Source: Tessaracoccus sp. MC1865 (GTDB lineage: Bacteria > Actinomycetota > Actinomycetes > Propionibacteriales > Propionibacteriaceae). Taken from it: DNA of 64,000 nt. Under the pieces are notes generated by a model. That model ran no database searches. It was not told the origin of the DNA and saw only the letters and a program-made list of their open reading frames with translations. The position numbers were made by a program, and so were the translations under genes. Positions 1,651-53,657 of the stretch are shown here, in pieces (position 1 is the first letter of the stretch; the number at the start of each line of letters is the position of its first letter). The stretch covers positions 1,860,001 through 1,924,000 of the forward strand of contig NZ_CP072596.1 of assembly GCF_017815535.1 (NCBI RefSeq), written 5' to 3'.

Positions 1651-2955
1651 TCAGAAGCCTACGACGCGCATGACGCGCACCTGGGAGCCCACGAAATCAG
1701 ATTCGCACAGTTGCTTGACGACGGCCGCCAGCGACGACTCCTGCGTGATGTGCGTCATGACGCCGAGGCGTGCGGGGAAGCCCTCCACGTGCGCCTCGTC
1801 CTCGAGATAGGACTGCTGCACCACGCGCAGCGACACGTTATGGTCGCCGAACACCGCGGCACACCTGGCGAGCACGCCCGGGCGGTCCTCCACCTCGAAG
1901 CTGACGTAGAACTGCGTCCAGGACTCTCCGACGGGCGCCACCTGGCGGCGGGTGTAGCCCGAGCCGATGTGGGCGGCGGTGCCGCGGTGGCGGTTGCGGC
2001 CCACGGTGACGACGTCGCCCATCACTGCGCTGGCCGTCGGGGCACCGCCCGCGCCGGCGCCGAGGAACATCAGTTCGCCGGCCTCACGCGAGTTCACGAA
2101 GATGGCGTTGTAGGCGCCGCGCACCGCCGCCAACGGGTGTTTGTTGGCCACCATGGCCGGGTGCACCTTGACGATGATGCGGTCGTCGTCGGTCAGCTTG
2201 GCCACCGCGAGGAGCTTGACGGTGCAGTCCATGGACTCGGCCGCGGCGATGTCGGCCTCGGTCACGCCTGTGATGCCCTCGGTGAAGACCTCCTGGCCCT
2301 TGACCTCGGTGTGGAACGCCAGCCCGGCGAGGATGGCGGCCTTCGCCGCCGCGTCGTGGCCGCCCACGTCGGCGGTGGGATCAGCCTCGGCGTAGCCCAG
2401 TTGCTGGGCTTCAGCGAGCGCCGAGTCGAAGCTGACGCCGTCTGTGACCATCTTGTCGAGGATGAAGTTGGTGGTGCCGTTGACGATGCCCATCACCTCG
2501 GTGATGTCGTCGCCCACCAACGACTCGCGCAATGGCCGGATGATCGGGATGGCGCCCGCGACAGCAGCCTCGTAGTAGAGGTCGACGCCCTTCTCCTCCG
2601 CGATGCGGGACAGTTCACCCAGATCCTCCGCCAGGAGGGCCTTGTTGGCGGAGATCACCGAGGCGCCCTTCTGGAGGGCCGTGCGCACCAGTTCACGGGC
2701 GGGCTCGAGGCCGCCGATGAGTTCGATGACGATGTCGAGGTCGTCGCGGGCGACGAGGGACTCGAGGTCTGTGGTCAGCAGCGCCGGGTCGATGCCGGGC
2801 CGCTCGACGTCCATGCGCCGGACGCCGATGCCCACGAGTTCGAGGCGACGGCCGATGCGGGCCTCGAGGGTGTCGCCCTCGTTGAGGATGATGCGTGCCA
2901 CCTGGCTACCGACGACGCCGGCCCCCAACAGCACAACCTTCAGCGGCTTGCTCAC
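1651..2955 (-). CDS. hom: Homoserine dehydrogenase
   Basis: Monofunctional enzyme of 434 aa converting aspartate semialdehyde to homoserine with NAD(P)H, the branch point to threonine and methionine. The Rossmann loop LLGAGVVGSQVARII is at residues 9-23, the catalytic core follows (GGLEPARELV, NGTTNFIL), and an ACT domain begins near residue 350 (SFEVEDRPGVLARCAAVFG), the usual site of threonine feedback inhibition in this family. Its GTG start overlaps the lysA stop by 4 bp (GTGA), giving the order lysA-hom-thrB in one transcription unit that joins the lysine and threonine branches of the aspartate pathway. Confidence 0.96.
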   Translation of the reverse strand: MSKPLKVVLLGAGVVGSQVARIILNEGDTLEARIGRRLELVGIGVRRMDVERPGIDPALLTTDLESLVARDDLDIVIELIGGLEPARELVRTALQKGASVISANKALLAEDLGELSRIAEEKGVDLYYEAAVAGAIPIIRPLRESLVGDDITEVMGIVNGTTNFILDKMVTDGVSFDSALAEAQQLGYAEADPTADVGGHDAAAKAAILAGLAFHTEVKGQEVFTEGITGVTEADIAAAESMDCTVKLLAVAKLTDDDRIIVKVHPAMVANKHPLAAVRGAYNAIFVNSREAGELMFLGAGAGGAPTASAVMGDVVTVGRNRHRGTAAHIGSGYTRRQVAPVGESWTQFYVSFEVEDRPGVLARCAAVFGDHNVSLRVVQQSYLEDEAHVEGFPARLGVMTHITQESSLAAVVKQLCESDFVGSQVRVMRVVGF

Positions 2956-4355
2956 TTACCCACGTCCAATCTCATGAGGTCATCCAGCGTTTCGCGGCGC
3001 AGCATCACGTCGGTGACACCGTCCTTCGCGCTGACGACAGGGGGCTTCGGGATCTGATTGTAGTTATTGGCCATGCTGCGTGCGTAGGCGCCGGATCCCG
3101 GGACGGCGATGAGGTCCCCGATGCGCACGTCCGCGGGGAGGAAGACGTCGCGGATGAGGATGTCGCCACCCTCGCAGTGCTTGCCCACGACGCGGCACAG
3201 GACCGGCTGCGCATCGGAGGTACGGTTGGCGAGTGCGCCGGAATACTCGGCGGCGTACAGGGCCGGGCGGATGTTGTCGCTCATGCCGCCGTCGACACTG
3301 ACGTACATCCGCGAGCGGCCTCCCTCGAGTTCGACCTGCTTGACGGTGCCGACCTCATAGACGGCCACACCGGACGGGCCACAGATGGCGCGGCCGGGCT
3401 CGATGCTCAGGTGCGGGCGGTTGATGCCGAACGCGCGGCATTCGTGGTCGATCATCTCCTCGAACGAGGACGCGAGTTCCGTGGTCGTCGACGGCGTGTC
3501 GGCCGCGGTGTAGGCGATACCGAAGCCGCCGCCGAGGTCCAGCTCCGGCAGTTCGACACCGGTGGCCTGACGGAACTGCGAGGCCAGCTTCAGCGTGCGG
3601 CGGATCGCCACCTCGAAGCCGTGGGTATCGAAGATCTGAGAGCCGATATGGCTGTGGATGCCGCGCAGCTCGAGGAACCTCGAGGAATGGCAGCGCACCA
3701 ACGCGGTCAGCGCCGCGCCACCCATGATGCTGAGGCCGAACTTCTGGTCCTCGTGCGCGGTGGCGATGTACTCGTGGGTGTGCGCCTCGACGCCGGTGGT
3801 GACGCGGATCAGGACATTGGCGGTGTGACCGCCGTCGGCGCACGCCCGCTCCAGGCGGTTGATCTCGTCGAAGGAGTCGACGATGATCCGCCCCACGCCC
3901 TGCTCGAGGGCGAACGCGATCTCGTCGTCGGACTTGTTGTTGCCGTGCAGACCGAGCCGCTCGGCCGGCATCCCGCCGGCCAGCGCGATGCGCATCTCGC
4001 CCATGGTGGTGACGTCGAGGTTGAGCCCCTCCTCGGCCGCCCACCGTGCGACGCGCCGCGTCAGCAGCGCCTTGCCCGCGTAGTAGACCGACCAGCCGGG
4101 GAAGGCCGTGATGAAGTCATGGGCCCTCGAGCGGAAGTCGTCCTCATCGATCAGGTAGACGGGCGTCCCGTGCTCAGCGACGGCGTCGGGCAGCGCCACA
4201 CCTGCCACGACGATGCGGCCCTGGTCGTCGCGGTGGGTGCCGCGTGGCCAGAGCTTGAGGTCGAGCTCGTTGAGGTCGTCCGGCACGGTGAGCCACTGGG
4301 GCCCGCCCTGCACGGCGTCCGCGTGGATCGAGCCGGCGATGTGCATGTGCGTCAT
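2952..4355 (-). CDS. lysA: Diaminopimelate decarboxylase
   Basis: PLP-dependent enzyme (467 aa) that decarboxylates meso-diaminopimelate to lysine, the last step of lysine synthesis. The PLP lysine is in the YYAGKALLTRR motif (Lys95), and the alanine-racemase-type barrel motifs HIGSQIFD, LDLGGGFGIAY and EPGRAICGPSG follow. The open frame continues 52 codons further upstream, but MTHMHIAGSIHADAV is the natural beginning and the upstream residues look like non-coding frame. Its end overlaps the hom start by 4 bp. The partner enzyme dapF is also in this window at 59.2 kb. Confidence 0.95.
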   Translation of the reverse strand: MTHMHIAGSIHADAVQGGPQWLTVPDDLNELDLKLWPRGTHRDDQGRIVVAGVALPDAVAEHGTPVYLIDEDDFRSRAHDFITAFPGWSVYYAGKALLTRRVARWAAEEGLNLDVTTMGEMRIALAGGMPAERLGLHGNNKSDDEIAFALEQGVGRIIVDSFDEINRLERACADGGHTANVLIRVTTGVEAHTHEYIATAHEDQKFGLSIMGGAALTALVRCHSSRFLELRGIHSHIGSQIFDTHGFEVAIRRTLKLASQFRQATGVELPELDLGGGFGIAYTAADTPSTTTELASSFEEMIDHECRAFGINRPHLSIEPGRAICGPSGVAVYEVGTVKQVELEGGRSRMYVSVDGGMSDNIRPALYAAEYSGALANRTSDAQPVLCRVVGKHCEGGDILIRDVFLPADVRIGDLIAVPGSGAYARSMANNYNQIPKPPVVSAKDGVTDVMLRRETLDDLMRLDVGK

Positions 4356-4398
4356 GGGGTCAAGCCTGCCAGAGCGCGGTTGGCAATCGGTATTTCGC

Positions 4399-4902
4399 TC
4401 AGCTGGTGGCCACGACCTGGATCTCCCTGGCATCACGCAGGAACACCTGGGCAGGCTCGCCGTCCACGACCTCGCCGTCGACCCTGACCTCGAGCGAGCC
4501 GCAGGCGGCACCGAGGCAGCCGGCGCCGAACCTCACACCCCACAGCGCAAAGAAGTGGCCCAGAGTGGATTCCCTGTTCGCCCCTCCCTCCAGCCACACT
4601 TCACCGCCGGCATCGTGGGTGTGCACCGGCGCCTGGATGGCTCGCGGCCTGTCGATCCCGATGTAGGCCGGAATCTCGACGGGTGCGCCGTCGACCGTGA
4701 TCGCCAGGTCCAGGATCCACGGGTCCGCGTCGTCGCCGAGGGCCAGTTCGCGCAGTCCGGCCGCACGGATGTAGGAGACGGCGTCACGAGGAGCATCCCA
4801 GGGCGGAGCGGTGTCGCGCAGCACCGCAGGAGCGGGCTCCGGGCGCGAGACGCACCCCACGAGCAGCGCCGCACTGACCACCAAAACGAGCAACCTACGC
4901 AC
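4399..4902 (-). CDS. Predicted lipoprotein of unknown function with an HTHD motif
   Basis: A 167-aa exported protein. Residues 1-17 form a lipoprotein signal (MRRLLVLVVSAALLVGC), with the lipobox LVGC placing the lipidated cysteine at position 17. The mature part has no enzyme motif I recognise; the most distinctive stretch is APVHTHDAGGEVWLEGG, resembling an HTHD...G...E segment seen in uncharacterised actinobacterial secreted proteins, and a CLGAACG pair that could form a disulfide. It precedes lysA on the same strand with a 43-bp gap. The start is supported by the signal peptide. Function unknown. Confidence 0.75.
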   Translation of the reverse strand: MRRLLVLVVSAALLVGCVSRPEPAPAVLRDTAPPWDAPRDAVSYIRAAGLRELALGDDADPWILDLAITVDGAPVEIPAYIGIDRPRAIQAPVHTHDAGGEVWLEGGANRESTLGHFFALWGVRFGAGCLGAACGSLEVRVDGEVVDGEPAQVFLRDAREIQVVATS

Positions 4903-4985
4903 GCCGCAACCATAACGGCAGGCGGTGGTGGTGTTGACGACCGTTTCGAGGTGCTAACCTTTCACCGGTCGCCTTCGGGTAACTG

Positions 4986-5057
4986 GCCCCCGTAGCTCAG
5001 GGGATAGAGCACCGCCCTCCGGAGGCGGGAGCCGAGGTTCGAATCCTCGCGGGGGCG
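4986..5057 (+). tRNA. tRNA-Arg (anticodon CCG)
   Basis: A complete cloverleaf of 72 nt: acceptor stem GCCCCCG/CGGGGGC, D stem GCTC/GAGC, anticodon stem CCGCC/GGCGG with loop CTCCGGA (anticodon CCG, reads CGG), T stem CGAGG/CCTCG with loop TTCGAAT, discriminator G. CCA is not encoded. It lies in the gap between the divergent lipoprotein and glycosyltransferase genes. Confidence 0.97.
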
Positions 5058-5084
5058 CAAGCCGTTCACAGGGGAGGCCAGAAG

Positions 5085-6353
5085 ATGACCGGAGCCGGGC
5101 GCGCGCCTCGTGGCCTGACTTTCCGAGACATCCTCGTACCTGTGCTGTTGGTGGCACTGTTCGCCGCCACCCGGTTCCTCATCCTGCTATCGCTCAAGCT
5201 CGAGCAGGTGGCGTTCATCGCCAACGACGTGAGCTACTACGCCTTCTACCTCAACAAGCTGGACATGGGCGAGACGGGCATCATGCTCGAGTACCCCGTC
5301 CCCGCCGTGTGGCTCCTGCAGATCATCTACGCCCTGGGCGGCGGCTGGGAAACCTGGACCCCGGTGTACGTCGGCTGCTTCCTCGCGCTCGACGCCCTGG
5401 TGGCGATCCTCATGTACCGACGCGGCAATGCTGCGGGGACGCTCTTCTGGATCCTGTTCACCGGCGCGCAGGGGGCGGTGCTCTGGTACCGCTTCGACCT
5501 CATTCCTGCGGCCCTGGTCGCCGTCGCCTGCGTGTACGCGCTGAGGTTCCCGAAGATCGCCGGCGGCGCCATCGGGCTGGGCGCGGCCGTGAAGCTGTGG
5601 CCGGCGCTGCTGATCGGGCCCCTGTTGGCGCCCAACCCGCTGCGCAGAGGGGGCGCACGTTCGCGGCTCATCGGCTTCATCGTGGTGGGTTTCGGCCTGG
5701 CTGCCGCGTCGCTCATCACGAGCGGCTGGACCCGTTCGGCCTCCCCGCTGACGTGGCAGAGCGACCGCGGCCTACAGATCGAATCCGTGCCCGCCACCCC
5801 CCTGATGTTCCTGCGCACGTTCACCCACAACGAGAGCTGGCTCATCGAGTTGTCGCAGTACAACGCGCTCGAGATCGTCACCGGCCCGGGCATCAACCAG
5901 CTGCTGACGGTGTCGACGGTGCTGACCGCCGCGTCGGTGCTGCTGACCATCTGGCTGAGCTACCGCCTCATCCAGCTCTTCCGCGAACAGGACCACCGTC
6001 TCCACGAGGCCATGCTGCTGGCTGTGCTGGCGATCGTGCTGGCCACGGTGATCGCCAACAAGACGCTGTCGCCGCAGTACATCGTGTGGCTCGGCGGCCC
6101 CGTCGCCGCACTCCTGGTGGTGCAGCGCAGCGAGTGGTTGCGGCGCCACACCACGGTGATCGCGGTGGCGCTGGTGATCGTCGGCGGCCTCACCCAGTTC
6201 ACCTATCCGTGGGGCGCGTACGGGATCATGGCGATCCCCCAGGGCGCCGGCCCGGAGACCTCCGTGCTCATCCTGCGCAACCTCGCGCTCGTGGCACTGA
6301 CGGCCTACTCCGTCGTGCTGACTCTGAAGGCGACCCGTCGCTCCACGTCCTGA
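5085..6353 (+). CDS. GT87/DUF2029-type integral membrane glycosyltransferase
   Basis: A 422-aa polytopic membrane protein with about ten hydrophobic segments. The N-terminal loop after the first segment contains NDVSYYAFYLNKLD and LEYPVPAVW, a pattern of the DUF2029/GT87 family of polyprenyl-phosphate-mannose-dependent mannosyltransferases (PimE relatives), where an acidic residue in the first extracytoplasmic loop is catalytic. A later MRFD-like WYRFDLIPAALVA segment and GAAVKLWPALLIGPLLAP also fit. It probably adds sugars to cell-envelope lipids or glycans from outside the membrane; the acceptor cannot be read from the sequence. ATG at 5085 follows GGGGAGG at 5070-5076. Downstream kgd is 105 bp away. 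Confidence 0.8.
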   Translation: MTGAGRAPRGLTFRDILVPVLLVALFAATRFLILLSLKLEQVAFIANDVSYYAFYLNKLDMGETGIMLEYPVPAVWLLQIIYALGGGWETWTPVYVGCFLALDALVAILMYRRGNAAGTLFWILFTGAQGAVLWYRFDLIPAALVAVACVYALRFPKIAGGAIGLGAAVKLWPALLIGPLLAPNPLRRGGARSRLIGFIVVGFGLAAASLITSGWTRSASPLTWQSDRGLQIESVPATPLMFLRTFTHNESWLIELSQYNALEIVTGPGINQLLTVSTVLTAASVLLTIWLSYRLIQLFREQDHRLHEAMLLAVLAIVLATVIANKTLSPQYIVWLGGPVAALLVVQRSEWLRRHTTVIAVALVIVGGLTQFTYPWGAYGIMAIPQGAGPETSVLILRNLALVALTAYSVVLTLKATRRSTS

Positions 6354-49380: not shown

Positions 49381-49414
49381 CAGGGCCGCCCCGGTTGTGC
49401 CCGGGGCGGCCCTG
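49381..49414 (-). terminator. Strong hairpin, original terminator of nrdJ
   Basis: CAGGGCCGCCCCGG pairs perfectly (14 bp) with CCGGGGCGGCCCTG around TTGTGC. It lies 24 bp left of the mobile element. If the element is removed, joining 49438 to 50769, it falls about 19 nt after the nrdJ stop codon, exactly where a terminator would be expected. It may now terminate transcription from the element. Confidence 0.8.
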
Positions 49415-49433: not shown

Positions 49434-49438
49434 TCAGC
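49434..49438. other. Left target-site duplication TCAGC
   Basis: The five bases TCAGC immediately before the left terminal repeat are repeated exactly at 50764-50768 after the right terminal repeat, the mark of a transposition event. Confidence 0.8.
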
Positions 49439-49450
49439 TGTCAGTTCTCA
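49439..49450 (+). repeat. Left terminal inverted repeat
   Basis: TGTCAGTTCTCA, exact complement of the sequence at 50752-50763. Inward of it, TGTC at 49457 and CGCACTGA at 49472 match the spacing of the right end within two bases, so the transposase-binding region is longer than 12 bp. Confidence 0.85.
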
Positions 49451-49651
49451 GGCAGTTGTCGCTCCGGTTCTCGCACTGACTCAGCGCAAGGTGCCGTTCA
49501 CCCAGTGACTCAGCTCCGCCCCCAGCCGCAGTGGAGCGATACGATCGGATCAAGCGGCGCGATCGTTGACTCCGTCCGTCAAGGTGCCACCGTGATCAGC
49601 TGGACGCCCAGCTTGCTCTCGAGGCTCCACATCGGGGAGTACGCAACGCAA

Positions 49652-50389
49652 CTATCCTGCCAATAACCCGTGGCGGGGTTCCATCCAGGGCCCCATGGTG
49701 CATGAGTGAGAGTAGTTTGAGGGGACGCCGGGCGCCGTCATGGTCGAGCCTGCTCGATATGGAGCAACTGTGTCGTTCCTAGCCCAGCCCTCCTCGGAGG
49801 GTCCAGCATCAATATCGCCGGTGACGTGTACCTCTGAGACAAGGTCAGCATCGCCGATCGCCTCCCTCGCAGCGACCGCAAGGTCCTGATCAATCAGTAC
49901 GCGAACGACTGGGTTATCGTCGTGCGTGCCGGGTCCAACCCACGCGTACACTGGCTTCAGCGCGTCAACGATGGACTGGACAGTCAGTACGTCATCGGCG
50001 ATCTGATCGCGCGAGGTCGTAACAATTCGGGTTGCGGGCTCGCTAGCGAGTTCCACCCCAGCCAAAGCTAGTTCCTCGTCCAAGGCGGCGCTCCCCGACT
50101 TGGCCAATCTCGACCCCTGCAAAATATCAATCGTGACGGATAGGTCGAAATCCACGCTGACACCGTCGAAACCTGGTAGATCGGCGAGCGCGGTTTCGAG
50201 TCGGCGCTGTAGGGCGATCTGCTCATCTACCAAGACCCCTGTCCTCGGGTCATCCTGCGAATATATCTGCTCGGTGCTGACTGTCCCTGGCGGACCCGGG
50301 ATGGGCACTTCGCTCTTCTCGGCAGCAGCCCAGGGACCTAAGCTCGCCAACGCTAGGGCACTTACAATCACGATGGCTGAACGTCTCAT
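49652..50389 (-). CDS. Passenger gene: secreted protein of unknown function
   Basis: A 245-aa protein with an N-terminal Sec signal (MRRSAIVIVSALALASLGPW, cleavage likely after AAA) and a predicted mature region with a mixed alpha/beta part (LPGFDGVSVDFDLSVTIDILQGS, VTTSRDQIADDVLTVQSIVDAL, VRVLIDQDLAVAAREAIGDADLV) and a tail ending NYSHSCTMGPWMEPRHGLLAG. The tail vaguely recalls the entrance of secreted S1-type serine proteases (AG....CTxG), so a propeptide with a missing protease domain is possible, but no catalytic triad is present. A strong GAAGGAG site is 8 nt before the ATG. One base out of frame after residue W, another frame continues 33 codons with Trp, Tyr and Cys, so a frameshift may have shortened it. 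Confidence 0.6.
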   Translation of the reverse strand: MRRSAIVIVSALALASLGPWAAAEKSEVPIPGPPGTVSTEQIYSQDDPRTGVLVDEQIALQRRLETALADLPGFDGVSVDFDLSVTIDILQGSRLAKSGSAALDEELALAGVELASEPATRIVTTSRDQIADDVLTVQSIVDALKPVYAWVGPGTHDDNPVVRVLIDQDLAVAAREAIGDADLVSEVHVTGDIDAGPSEEGWARNDTVAPYRAGSTMTAPGVPSNYSHSCTMGPWMEPRHGLLAG

Positions 50390-50584
50390 ACTTGAGACTC
50401 CTTCGGTGGAAACCACGCAGTCTCCTTTTCGAGAGATTAGCCGGGGTTGCCCCATGATTGTTCATCATCCGAGAAATCGGACGGTCCATGTGCACGCTTT
50501 GCATACATCTGCGGGCTGCGGAGCGGATCGACGGAACGCCACCTCAAGGGACTTTAGGTACTGCCTCGATATCTGGCGGCACAC

Positions 50585-50619
50585 AAGAGGCCCGGAACCA
50601 CATCGGTTCCGGGCCTCTT
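50585..50619. terminator. Strong hairpin inside the right end of the element
   Basis: AAGAGGCCCGGAACC pairs perfectly with GGTTCCGGGCCTCTT around ACATC (15-bp stem). It separates nrdJ transcription from the passenger gene and now probably serves as the working terminator for nrdJ. Confidence 0.85.
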
Positions 50620-50670
50620 CGCGTTGCCGTTGTACGTTCCCGGTGAAAGTCACACCCGTGACCGTCTCAC

Positions 50671-50763
50671 GTCACTGACATGCCTGTGCGAATCCACTGA
50701 CATCGGGTGTGAATCCACTGATAAATCAGTGCGAATCCGCTGACATTTCGATGAGAACTGACA
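50671..50763 (-). repeat. Five degenerate ~20-bp repeats in the right end of the element
   Basis: Read on the minus strand, units of the form TGTCAG-TGGATTCGCAC recur about every 18-23 bp: near 50763, 50746, 50723, 50703 and 50681, with TGTCAG or TATCAG at each start and GATTCGCAC or GATTCACAC in three. They look like multiple transposase-binding sites; the left end has fewer and more degenerate copies (CACTGACTCAGC, CAGTGACTCAGC). Confidence 0.7.
50752..50763 (-). repeat. Right terminal inverted repeat
   Basis: TGAGAACTGACA on the plus strand, exact complement of the left terminal repeat at 49439-49450. It directly abuts the nrdJ stop codon (50764-50766). Confidence 0.85.
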
Positions 50764-50768
50764 TCAGC
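50764..50768. other. Right target-site duplication TCAGC
   Basis: Identical to the five bases at 49434-49438. It contains the complement of the nrdJ stop codon (TGA), so insertion regenerated the stop and left the coding sequence intact. Confidence 0.8.
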
Positions 50769-53598
50769 TGCAACCGCTGGTGGAGCCGCAGCCCTCGCAG
50801 ACGTAGCAGCTGCCCGACGGGCGCATCTTGGTGCCGCAGGTCATGCAGAGCGGCGCGTCGATCGCGGCGACACCCATGGCCTCCATCAACTCCGCCGTCG
50901 TGTGCGCGTCGATCAGCGAAGGCTGACGGGCGCCGTCCACGTTGAAGTCGTCGAACTCGTCGTTGCGGAGTTGCTCGGCCTCGGGCATCCGGGCCTCGTC
51001 CTCCTCCGACAGGTAGCTGCCGGTCTCGACGTAGCGGGCGCGCTCACCGGCGGTGTAGATGCCGAGTTCGGCGCGGTCGTCGAACGTGAGGTAGTCCAGG
51101 GCCAGGCGGCGGAAGATGTAGTCCATGAAGGACTGCGCGATCCGGATGTCGGGGTCGTCCGTCATACCGGCGGGTTCAAACTTCAGGTTGGTGAACTTCT
51201 GCACGAAACTCTCCAGCGGCACGCCGTACTGCAGGCCGATCGACACTGCGATGGAGAACGCGTCCATCACGCCGGACAGCGTGGAACCCTGCTTGCCGAG
51301 CTTGAGGAACACCTCGCCGAGGCGGCCGTCGTCGTAGGCACCCGACGTCATGTAGCCCTCGGCACCGCTCACAGAGAAGCTCGTGGTGCGCGAAGCACGC
51401 GACTTGGGCAGGCGGCGGCGCTTGGGACGGTACTCGATGCGCACCTCGGGCTGCGGGGCTTCCTTCGCCTCGACGGCGGTCTTCTTCTTGCCGTCGGAGA
51501 GGGGCTGGCCGACCTTGCAGTTGTCGCGGTAGACGGCGAGCGCCTTGAGACCGAGCTTCCAGCCCTGCAGGTAGACGTCCGCGATCTCCTCGACCGTGGC
51601 GTCCTCCGGGAGGTTGACCGTCTTGGAGATGGCGCCGGAGAGGAAGGGCTGCACGGCCGCCATCATGCGCACGTGACCCATGGGCTTGATGGCCCGGGTC
51701 CCCATGGCGGTGTCGAAGACCTCGTAGTGCTCGGCGGCCAGACCTGGAGCCCCGATCACGTGACCGTGGGTGCCGATGAACTCGACGATGGCGTCGATGT
51801 CCTCCGACTTGTAGCCGAGACGCTTGAGCGCGCGCGGGACCGTCTGGTTGACGATCTGCATCGAACCGCCGCCGACGAGCTTCTTGAACTTCACGAGCGA
51901 GAAGTCCGGCTCGACGCCGGTGGTGTCGCAGTCCATCATGAAGCCGATGGTGCCGGTGGGCGCCAGCACGGAGGCCTGCGCGTTGCGGAAGCCGTTCTTG
52001 GCGCCCAGCGAGACCACGTGGTCCCACTCGCGGGTGGCGACGGCATGCAGCTGCCGGTCGTCTGCCAGCACGCGCAGGTCGTCGTTGGCCGCCTGGTGCT
52101 TGCGCATCACGCGCTGGTGGGCCTCCGCGTTGACGGCGTAGCCGTTGTACGGGCCGACGATGGCGGCGAGCTCAGCCGAGCGGCGGTACGAGGCGCCCGT
52201 CATGACCGACGTGATGGCGGCGGCGGTGGAGCGGCCACCATCCGTGTCATAACCCTTGCCCATGGCCATCAGCAGTGCGCCGAGGTTGGCGTAGCCGATG
52301 CCCAGCTGGCGGAAGTTGCGGGTGGTCTCCCCGATGGACTCGGTGGGGAAATCCGCGAAACAGATCGAGATGTCCATCGCGGTGATGATCAACTCGACAG
52401 CCTTGACGAACGTCTCCGCGTCGAAGGTGCCGTCGGGCTTGAGGAACTTCAGCAGGTTGAGCGAGGCCAGGTTGCACGACGAGTTGTCGAGGCTCATGTA
52501 CTCGGAGCAGGGGTTGGACGCCGTGATGGGGCCGGTCACCGGGTTGGTGTGCCAGTCGTTGATGGTGTCGTTGTACTGGATGCCGGGATCCGCACATTCC
52601 CAGGCCGCCTTGGCCATCTTCTGGAACAGGTCGTTTGCGTCGACCTCCTCGATCACCGAGCCGTCGCTGCGGGACCGCAGCCCGAAGGAGGCACCGTCCT
52701 CGACGGCGGTCATGAACTCGTCGCTGACGCGAACGGAGTTGTTGGCGTTCTGGTACTGCACCGAGGTGATGTCCTTGCCGCCCAGGTCCATGTCGAACCC
52801 GGCGTCACGCAGGGCGCGGATCTTGTCCTCTTCGCGCGCCTTGGTCTCGATGAACTCCACGATGTCCGGGTGGTCCACGTCGAGCACCACCATCTTGGCG
52901 GCCCTACGGGTGGCGCCGCCGGACTTGATGGTGCCGGCCGACGCGTCGGCGCCCCGCATGAAGGACACCGGGCCGGAGGCGGTGCCGCCGGAGCTCAGGA
53001 GTTCCTTGGACGAACGGATGCGGGAGAGGTTGAGGCCGGCGCCGGAGCCGCCCTTGAAGATGAAGCCCTCTTCCCGGTACCAGTTGAGGATGGACTCCAT
53101 GGAGTCGTCGACCGAGAGGATGAAGCAGGCGCTGACCTGCTGCGGCGAGGGGGTGCCGACGTTGAACCAGACGGGCGAGTTGAAGGAGAAGTACTGGTTG
53201 AGCAGCATCCACGTGAGTTCGTGGCCGAACATCTCCGCGTCGGAGTCCGTGGCGAAGTAGCCGTAGTCGGCGCCGGCCTTGACGTAGCTCGTCACCACCC
53301 GGTCGATGAGGGTGCGCAGCGAGTCTTCCCGCTCGGGGGTGCCGACGGCGCCACGGAAGTACTTCGTGGTGACGATGGTGGAGGCGTTGACGCTCCAGGA
53401 CGACGGGAACTCCACGCCGTGCTGCTCGAAGACGGTCTCACCGGTTCGCCAGTTCGTCTGCACCACGTCGCGGCGGTCCCACTCAACTTCGTCGTACGGA
53501 TGCACGCCCGGCTTGGTGAAGACGCGGTCGATGACGAGACCCTTGGCCTCTGTGTCCGAGGACTTGCGGCGGGAGGCCCGCGCTGCGGTCGCTGTCAT
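50764..53598 (-). CDS. nrdJ: Vitamin B12-dependent (class II) ribonucleotide reductase
   Basis: A 944-aa adenosylcobalamin-dependent reductase that makes deoxynucleotides with or without oxygen. The radical-enzyme barrel includes SFNSPVWFNVG and SACFILSVDDSMESILNWYREEGFIFKGGSGAGLNLSRIRS, and NPCSEYMSLDNSSCNLASLNLLKFL; the C-terminus CGTKMRPSGSCYVCEGCGSTSGCS is a zinc-ribbon-like Cys-rich tail that re-reduces the active site. The ATG at 53598 is used. It follows nrdR by 59 bp. The mobile cassette begins at the base after its stop. Needs cobalamin, typical of Propionibacteriaceae. Confidence 0.97.
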   Translation of the reverse strand: MTATAARASRRKSSDTEAKGLVIDRVFTKPGVHPYDEVEWDRRDVVQTNWRTGETVFEQHGVEFPSSWSVNASTIVTTKYFRGAVGTPEREDSLRTLIDRVVTSYVKAGADYGYFATDSDAEMFGHELTWMLLNQYFSFNSPVWFNVGTPSPQQVSACFILSVDDSMESILNWYREEGFIFKGGSGAGLNLSRIRSSKELLSSGGTASGPVSFMRGADASAGTIKSGGATRRAAKMVVLDVDHPDIVEFIETKAREEDKIRALRDAGFDMDLGGKDITSVQYQNANNSVRVSDEFMTAVEDGASFGLRSRSDGSVIEEVDANDLFQKMAKAAWECADPGIQYNDTINDWHTNPVTGPITASNPCSEYMSLDNSSCNLASLNLLKFLKPDGTFDAETFVKAVELIITAMDISICFADFPTESIGETTRNFRQLGIGYANLGALLMAMGKGYDTDGGRSTAAAITSVMTGASYRRSAELAAIVGPYNGYAVNAEAHQRVMRKHQAANDDLRVLADDRQLHAVATREWDHVVSLGAKNGFRNAQASVLAPTGTIGFMMDCDTTGVEPDFSLVKFKKLVGGGSMQIVNQTVPRALKRLGYKSEDIDAIVEFIGTHGHVIGAPGLAAEHYEVFDTAMGTRAIKPMGHVRMMAAVQPFLSGAISKTVNLPEDATVEEIADVYLQGWKLGLKALAVYRDNCKVGQPLSDGKKKTAVEAKEAPQPEVRIEYRPKRRRLPKSRASRTTSFSVSGAEGYMTSGAYDDGRLGEVFLKLGKQGSTLSGVMDAFSIAVSIGLQYGVPLESFVQKFTNLKFEPAGMTDDPDIRIAQSFMDYIFRRLALDYLTFDDRAELGIYTAGERARYVETGSYLSEEDEARMPEAEQLRNDEFDDFNVDGARQPSLIDAHTTAELMEAMGVAAIDAPLCMTCGTKMRPSGSCYVCEGCGSTSGCS

Positions 53599-53657
53599 GG
53601 TCAAAACCCCTCTGATTCTCTTGCTGCGTTTGATTCGATGTGAAGCTGATGTGTTGC

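Follow-up and report, generated by a model that had tools for sequence, protein, structure and literature searches.

A small insertion behind nrdJ in Tessaracoccus is very probably a reduced member of a Tn7-like transposon family

Introduction

What lies between nrdJ and its terminator in Tessaracoccus sp. MC1865, and how might it have come to be there? In the window (the whole 64,000-nucleotide stretch of DNA analysed here, positions 1,860,001 to 1,924,000 of its contig), a short segment at the nrdJ stop codon had been read in an initial annotation as a transposase-less cassette with IS481/IS3-like ends, moved in trans by a full-length element elsewhere. We argue instead that it very probably belongs, as an internally shortened and non-autonomous copy, to a Tn7-like family whose attachment site would be the 3' end of nrdJ. 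Attachment sites of Tn7-like elements named in PMC11406308 are glmS, parE, comM, yhiN, tRNA and a few others. No report of nrdJ as a landing site for such elements was found in the literature searched; supplements and subscription papers lay outside its scope, so Benler et al. or others may table such elements without comment.

Results and Discussion

Anatomy of the insertion

The element is bounded by perfect 12-bp inverted ends lying 1,301 bp apart and by a TCAGC duplication (Table 1), and its GC content (59.1%) is below that of the measured flanks (66.8% and 66.3%); the initial annotation had named the inverted ends, the duplication and the lower GC. The exact boundaries assigned to it between nrdJ and the native terminator also hold: excision of the element together with one TCAGC leaves a hairpin with 14-bp arms 19 nt 3' of the nrdJ stop. 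Within the 3.04-Mb genome the exact terminal 12-mer occurs at two places only, both in this element, and no second copy of the element was found there. When the window was resampled 100 times with a first-order Markov model, 14 resamples gave a 12-bp inverted repeat with a 5-bp duplication at a spacing of 0.5-5 kb, and the anatomy alone is therefore no overwhelming proof of insertion; as far as sequence comparison can tell, it is the homologous elements at the same site that settle its reality. The insertion in the window is confirmed as genuine.

The R end carries an array of putative TnsB boxes spaced 22 bp apart and the L end two boxes, in the window element and its relatives alike, and the first 94 bp of the R end are 81-82% identical to those of the elements in Phycicoccus and in genome G766. 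The ends are thus present and the transposase is absent, as had been proposed: profiles for the TnsA, TnsB, TnsC, X and HTH proteins of the relatives (described below) had no significant match to either the element or the window (best in the window, X at E 0.83). The one passenger gene encodes a putative secreted protein whose N-terminus resembles a signal peptide by eye, which matches no Pfam or NCBIfam model, and for which no homologue was found in the other 196 of the 197 family genomes searched. A suspicion by eye that it might be the pro-region of an S1 protease, like proteins of the congener G013, was dropped (no match; hhalign E 0.59).

Table 1. Features of the nrdJ locus in the window and elements related to the insertion
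Feature	Position	Strand	Size or remark
Whole element	49439..50763	- (nrdJ-proximal end given first)	1,325 bp
Distal copy of the target duplication TCAGC (reads GCTGA along nrdJ)	49434..49438		GCTGA also flanks 4 related elements
Target duplication, nrdJ-proximal copy	50764..50768		nrdJ stop codon inside
L end terminal inverted repeat TGTCAGTTCTCA	49439..49450	+	L end as a whole 86-88% over 34-43 bp vs G766/Phycicoccus
L end, second putative TnsB box	49457..49472	+	Resembles L ends of relatives
R end terminal box	50749..50763	-	12-bp inverted repeat is 50752-50763
R end putative TnsB box 1 TGTCAGCGGATTCGCAC	50729..50745	-	
R end putative TnsB box 2 TATCAGTGGATTCACAC	50707..50723	-	
R end putative TnsB box 3 TGTCAGTGGATTCGCAC	50686..50702	-	
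R end partial putative TnsB box 4 TGTCAGTGAC	50671..50680	-	
15-bp perfect hairpin within R end, proposed replacement terminator of nrdJ	50585..50619		
Passenger gene, putative secreted protein	49652..50389	-	245 aa; 267 aa (to 50455) if translation starts at an upstream ATG
nrdJ, class II ribonucleotide reductase	50764..53604	-	Pfam; 3' end is the attachment site proposed
Native nrdJ hairpin terminator, parted from gene by insertion	49381..49414		14-bp arms
Phycicoccus avicenniae BSK3Z-2 element			15,289 bp; GCTGA both sides; repeats start directly behind nrdJ stop
G766 element			18,801 bp; R end abuts nrdJ stop; GCTGA both sides
G621 element			11,625 bp; R end abuts nrdJ stop; GCTGA both sides; X and tnsC frames broken
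G155 element			17,882 bp; R end abuts nrdJ stop; GCTGA both sides; ambiguous base in two genes
G647 composite element			R end ~6.8 kb past nrdJ; R and L ends mismatched

Larger elements with the same ends occupy the same site

A search for the two-end repeat pattern over 84,980 species genomes returned 10 stretches, two of them relevant by eye (in P. avicenniae BSK3Z-2 and in G013, which was also the one good congener match when the element was compared with 96 relatives). The other 8 of the 10 genome contigs looked unrelated and were dropped, as were 3 of 4 class-level end-pattern matches, short matches to the hairpin in G052, G029 and G043, a match in G078 and weak matches in G125 and G143. 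With the Phycicoccus transposase as query (E <= 1e-10), matches came from 6 of 186 genomes of its family, which we take to be Dermatophilaceae, and from 1 of 197 in the family of the window's host. Over the aligned TnsB, five homologues, Phycicoccus included, showed at least 44% identity among the 383 genomes of both families; over the whole alignment, identity to the Phycicoccus protein was 72% in G766, 44% in G647, 43% in G621 and 45% in G155, and weaker matches in G753 and G750 had 28-29%. Each of the five had nrdJ within the 40 kb fetched, upstream and in the same orientation, four of them directly at the stop.

Four of these relatives, of 11.6-18.8 kb, are two-ended (P. avicenniae, G766, G621 and G155, from two actinobacterial families) and have the same ends as the window copy, at the same site. 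GCTGA flanks all five two-ended elements, the window copy included, and in each of them the R end lies directly at the nrdJ stop in a fixed orientation. The earlier expectation that the ends would recur in larger elements with a DDE transposase, and in other cassettes of different content, was thus correct, the latter being present at the same site in other genomes. Specificity for nrdJ, with five two-ended elements behind it, is well supported by this comparison, and we judge the insertion point in the window to be a specific site and not a matter of chance.

The family is rare. A class-wide search with the TnsB profile gave 0 of 394 class genomes at E <= 1e-60, a strict limit that, with three candidates scored per genome, makes this zero say little on distant relatives; no further L ends were found among the 394. 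Plasmids gave no match to the R end or to X, with TnsB relatives at no more than 28% identity among the matches listed, and viral contigs yielded no partner, their single pattern match being unrelated.

Transposition proteins of the relatives

All five large elements, G647 included, share the gene order HTH-X-TnsC-TnsB-TnsA. In the Phycicoccus element these genes, taken outward from nrdJ and all facing it, encode an HTH protein (239 aa), X (394 aa), an ATPase (251 aa), the transposase (519 aa) and a TnsA-like protein (208 aa). The TnsB profile of the relatives matched ShTnsB (E 4.9e-4) and the PADLOC TnsB (E 4.4e-4), and the DDE residues are kept in all five homologues. Their TnsC profile matched ShTnsC (E 6.6e-6) and MuB (E 7.4e-5), with generic ATPases as the best PDB matches, scoring above both; Walker motifs are kept in 4/4 aligned sequences, the TnsC of G621 being truncated. 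The TnsA-like protein, encoded beside tnsB, keeps an E...D...ExK pattern in 4/4 aligned members, one of which matches PDDEXK_1 weakly (E 7.9e-4); its profile matched no solved structure and gave no alignment with Tn7 TnsA. As a yardstick, profile comparison with Tn7 itself gave E 0.0025 for TnsB and E 0.0014 for TnsC (P-loop only).

Besides X and the HTH protein, the full relatives encode a TnsA-like nuclease of the PD-(D/E)XK type, a TnsB-like transposase with a DDE triad and an AAA ATPase resembling TnsC. In the mechanism that we propose, TnsB would bind the repeated boxes at both ends, and excision would be the joint work of TnsA and TnsB. Binding of X, possibly assisted by the HTH protein, to the conserved last codons of nrdJ would then recruit TnsC, so that insertion would follow right behind the stop. 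The window copy keeps both ends and a single gene, whose product is probably secreted, and would have lost all transposition genes; it would now be stranded, and any movement would require TnsABC and the selector from a full relative.

The nrdJ site in congeners

A NrdJ match was found in 38 of 39 congeners, and all 38 gene 3' ends were read; behind the stop, the window shows an intact R end. G015, the closest relative by the NrdJ C-terminus (99%), provides the clean empty site that the initial annotation had sought among relatives: nrdJ has no insert behind it there, and the gene that directly follows is homologous (58% over 146 aa) to the one next in line in the window. In the empty sites of G015 (L060) and G030 (L061), the hairpin behind nrdJ and the beginning of the following reading frame appear to overlap.

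Element traces of other kinds were seen in a few congeners. G011 has a decayed R end behind the nrdJ stop (80% over 50 bp), and G026 may, by eye, have an element remnant there. In G020 the stop is followed by different, similarly spaced repeats (TGTCACC boxes), with no tns genes detected within 40 kb of nrdJ; these repeats suggest a second, diverged transposon lineage at the same site. They start at ~631 of L089, are end-like with a 22-bp spacing, and are followed by a transposase that looks ISL3-like by eye. The G013 contig (L009) begins with the 3' part of nrdJ, followed by a native-type hairpin and then by element remains: an island in which a shortened HTH gene (E 1.7e-16) is accompanied by genes for secreted proteins, by a transposase of IS256 type and by element ends. 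At the end of this contig (6225-6342) an L end, GCTGA and an R end stand in succession, which may reflect a tandem insertion of two elements or an assembly effect (the contig has a run of N). A secreted protease-like gene in the island (2536-3771 and 5642-6196; VTAGHC and GDSGG by eye), without a Pfam match, is apparently split by the IS256-type transposase (3785-5092), and more secreted-protein genes adjoin it. The other 33 of the 38 ends have no such element end directly behind the nrdJ stop. A repeat scan also flagged G024, where a unit that looks unrelated occurs three times at a greater distance from the stop, and gave two-copy matches in G015, G037 and G009.

X as a candidate target selector

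No Pfam match to TniQ was obtained for X (n=4), the HTH protein (n=5), TnsA (n=4) or the other element proteins scanned, which took in part of the small ORFs, and X compared with Tn7 TnsD gave nothing (E 0.49). One tblastn match of TnsD, 57 aa long at E 0.002, falls within the type IIG gene of G621 but in antisense, and was taken as chance. TniQ/TnsD has been described as ubiquitous in the Tn7 branch (PMC10293859), and PMC8649781 puts the presence of TnsD in Tn7-like elements at 73-97%, depending on the clade.

X is present in all five large elements, although broken in G621. Aligned by hhalign to the catalytic region of six tyrosine recombinases (122 columns), it scored 33.0 (E 0.0019) with a probability of only 14.5%, in a comparison that followed a single-sequence hint (E 0.015) and is thus not an independent test; 60 column shuffles reached at most 22.6, and the reversed control 17.4. 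The arginine of the first tyrosine-recombinase motif is, by eye, replaced in 4/4 aligned X. A single-sequence structure model (mean pLDDT 37.6) was too low in confidence for use. We regard X as a candidate TnsF-like selector, no more, a role that draws on its position and the weak profile match. Most likely, we infer, TnsABC are guided to the site by X, perhaps acting with the HTH protein, through recognition of the conserved 3' end of nrdJ.

Alternative readings

With its inverted ends, duplication, passenger and lack of a transposase, the window copy has the anatomy of a mobile insertion cassette that relies on a complete IS of IS481, IS3 or IS21 type for movement in trans, and the transposase of the relatives is distantly similar to the NCBIfam models of IS481 and IS21. 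The scores, however, fall far under the respective cut-offs (IS481 49.7 bits against 224, IS21 35.8 against 160, IS3 28.5 against 160), the elements that encode this transposase measure 11.6-18.8 kb and also have TnsA-, TnsC-, X and HTH genes, and the genome of the window's host has neither another copy of the ends nor a TnsB relative (E <= 1e-10). The search for an autonomous partner there found none, so that movement in trans by a full-length element has no support in this genome. We consider the IS481/IS3 assignment of the initial annotation to be largely refuted, leaving a cassette of this sort highly improbable. We see the chances as evenly balanced between a decayed remnant of a larger nrdJ element, its passenger being leftover cargo without selection, and a cassette that moved at its present size. 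Larger and eroded material does occur behind nrdJ in G013, with its HTH-gene fragment and a gene broken by the IS256-type transposase, and in G011, and in the window another frame continues behind the passenger stop. Against decay, neither the 12-bp ends nor the duplication shows a mismatch, as would fit recent movement or recent deletion, and the nearest congener is empty. On either course, moved at 1,325 bp or shrunk in place, the window copy is best described as a derivative that is reduced in size, non-autonomous and placed where the family usually inserts; because no tns gene is present, its membership of the family rests on its ends and site.

As to the selector, this might instead be the HTH protein, or a divergent TniQ that escaped detection, with X in another role. 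The HTH gene adjoins the R end in all five large elements and its product has weak Cro/C1-type DNA-binding matches (best E 0.0061, in 2 of 5 members); the profile method also missed TnsA against Tn7 TnsA, and a TniQ could therefore have been overlooked. We find this assignment rather doubtful, since X is kept in all five elements and its recombinase-like match, weak as it is, is in line with TnsF. Returning to X as the candidate, we would put forward, tentatively and as a picture that may well prove wrong, a TniQ-free Tn7-like lineage: a catalytically dead recombinase-like X (perhaps with the Cro/C1-type HTH protein) would read the nrdJ 3' end and recruit TnsC directly, setting the transposon across the stop codon with an end that brings a replacement terminator and so spares nrdJ; the nrdJ 3' end would be a recurrent dock for defence islands in actinobacteria, and the window copy a minimal natural donor.

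Comparison with known systems

Like Tn7, which targets glmS and has TnsABC with TnsD/TnsE, the nrdJ elements have a TnsA-, TnsB- and TnsC-like core, a 5-bp duplication, cargo and repeat arrays at asymmetric ends, and they insert in a fixed orientation just past the 3' end of a conserved gene. Unlike Tn7, they sit at the stop itself, TnsD/TniQ and TnsE were not found in them, their TnsC has ~250 aa compared with 555 aa in the R721 Tn7, and the proteins are only distantly similar. Tn5053/Tn402 (TniABQ) elements share with them a small ATPase of TnsC/TniB size, a 5-bp duplication and repeats at the ends, but the nrdJ elements differ in their TnsA-like gene, in that TniQ was not detected, and in having a chromosomal gene as target. 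Tn6022 with TnsF (PMC10293859) encodes, beside tnsABC, a protein with a degenerate tyrosine-recombinase-like C-terminus, which X may resemble to judge by the description of TnsF; Tn6022 uses TniQ and TnsF and inserts into comM, whereas TniQ was not detected in the nrdJ elements. Mobile insertion cassettes and passenger-carrying MITEs resemble the window copy in their intact ends, passenger gene and lack of a transposase, but the parents of the window copy would be Tn7-like elements with a fixed site and not insertion sequences.

nrdJ would thus join the short list of chromosomal attachment sites of Tn7-like elements, as a target whose product, a class II reductase, supplies DNA precursors. If X selects the target without TniQ, this would be a second way to link TnsC with a protein that recognises the site. 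At 1,325 bp, the window copy reveals the end sequences that were retained, and would be a compact donor for tests.

The R-end hairpin and the conserved 3' end of nrdJ

In all five two-ended elements a strong hairpin starts 104-167 bp in from the R terminus. For the four large elements, 200 interior windows drawn at random from each gave nothing as strong; for the window copy, 3 of 200 samples taken across the window were as strong. Since insertion parts nrdJ from its own terminator, we read the R-end hairpin as a possible replacement, which the R end would bring with it; such hairpins suggest that the transposon repairs the transcript end that its insertion disrupts. Among the five hosts from other genera, the last 90 nt of nrdJ are 81-87% identical as against 43-47% (ungapped) in the preceding 90 nt, a drop exaggerated by length differences. 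In the last 75 nt, third codon positions make up only 4 of 40 invariant positions, so that the conservation is explained by the protein and is no proof of selection at the DNA level.

Defence cargo of the relatives

The Phycicoccus element carries a type III restriction-modification pair together with two PycC and one PycTM, which form a Pycsar-like set; that of G766 a type III restriction system (by similarity to Phycicoccus) and CBASS proteins; that of G155 type I restriction-modification; and that of G621 type IIG restriction-modification and a TIR-domain protein. Given these restriction, CBASS and Pycsar genes, the 3' ends of nrdJ are a place to seek defence islands in actinobacteria. A similar gene lies beside the L end in G621 (L110, 12737-13579) and in G647, the G621 copy having a TIR domain (Pfam E 5e-18). 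The composite G647 region (contig C1, ~1005500-1031900; L108/L109) also contains, by eye, a gene for a tyrosine recombinase and fragments of type I restriction genes.
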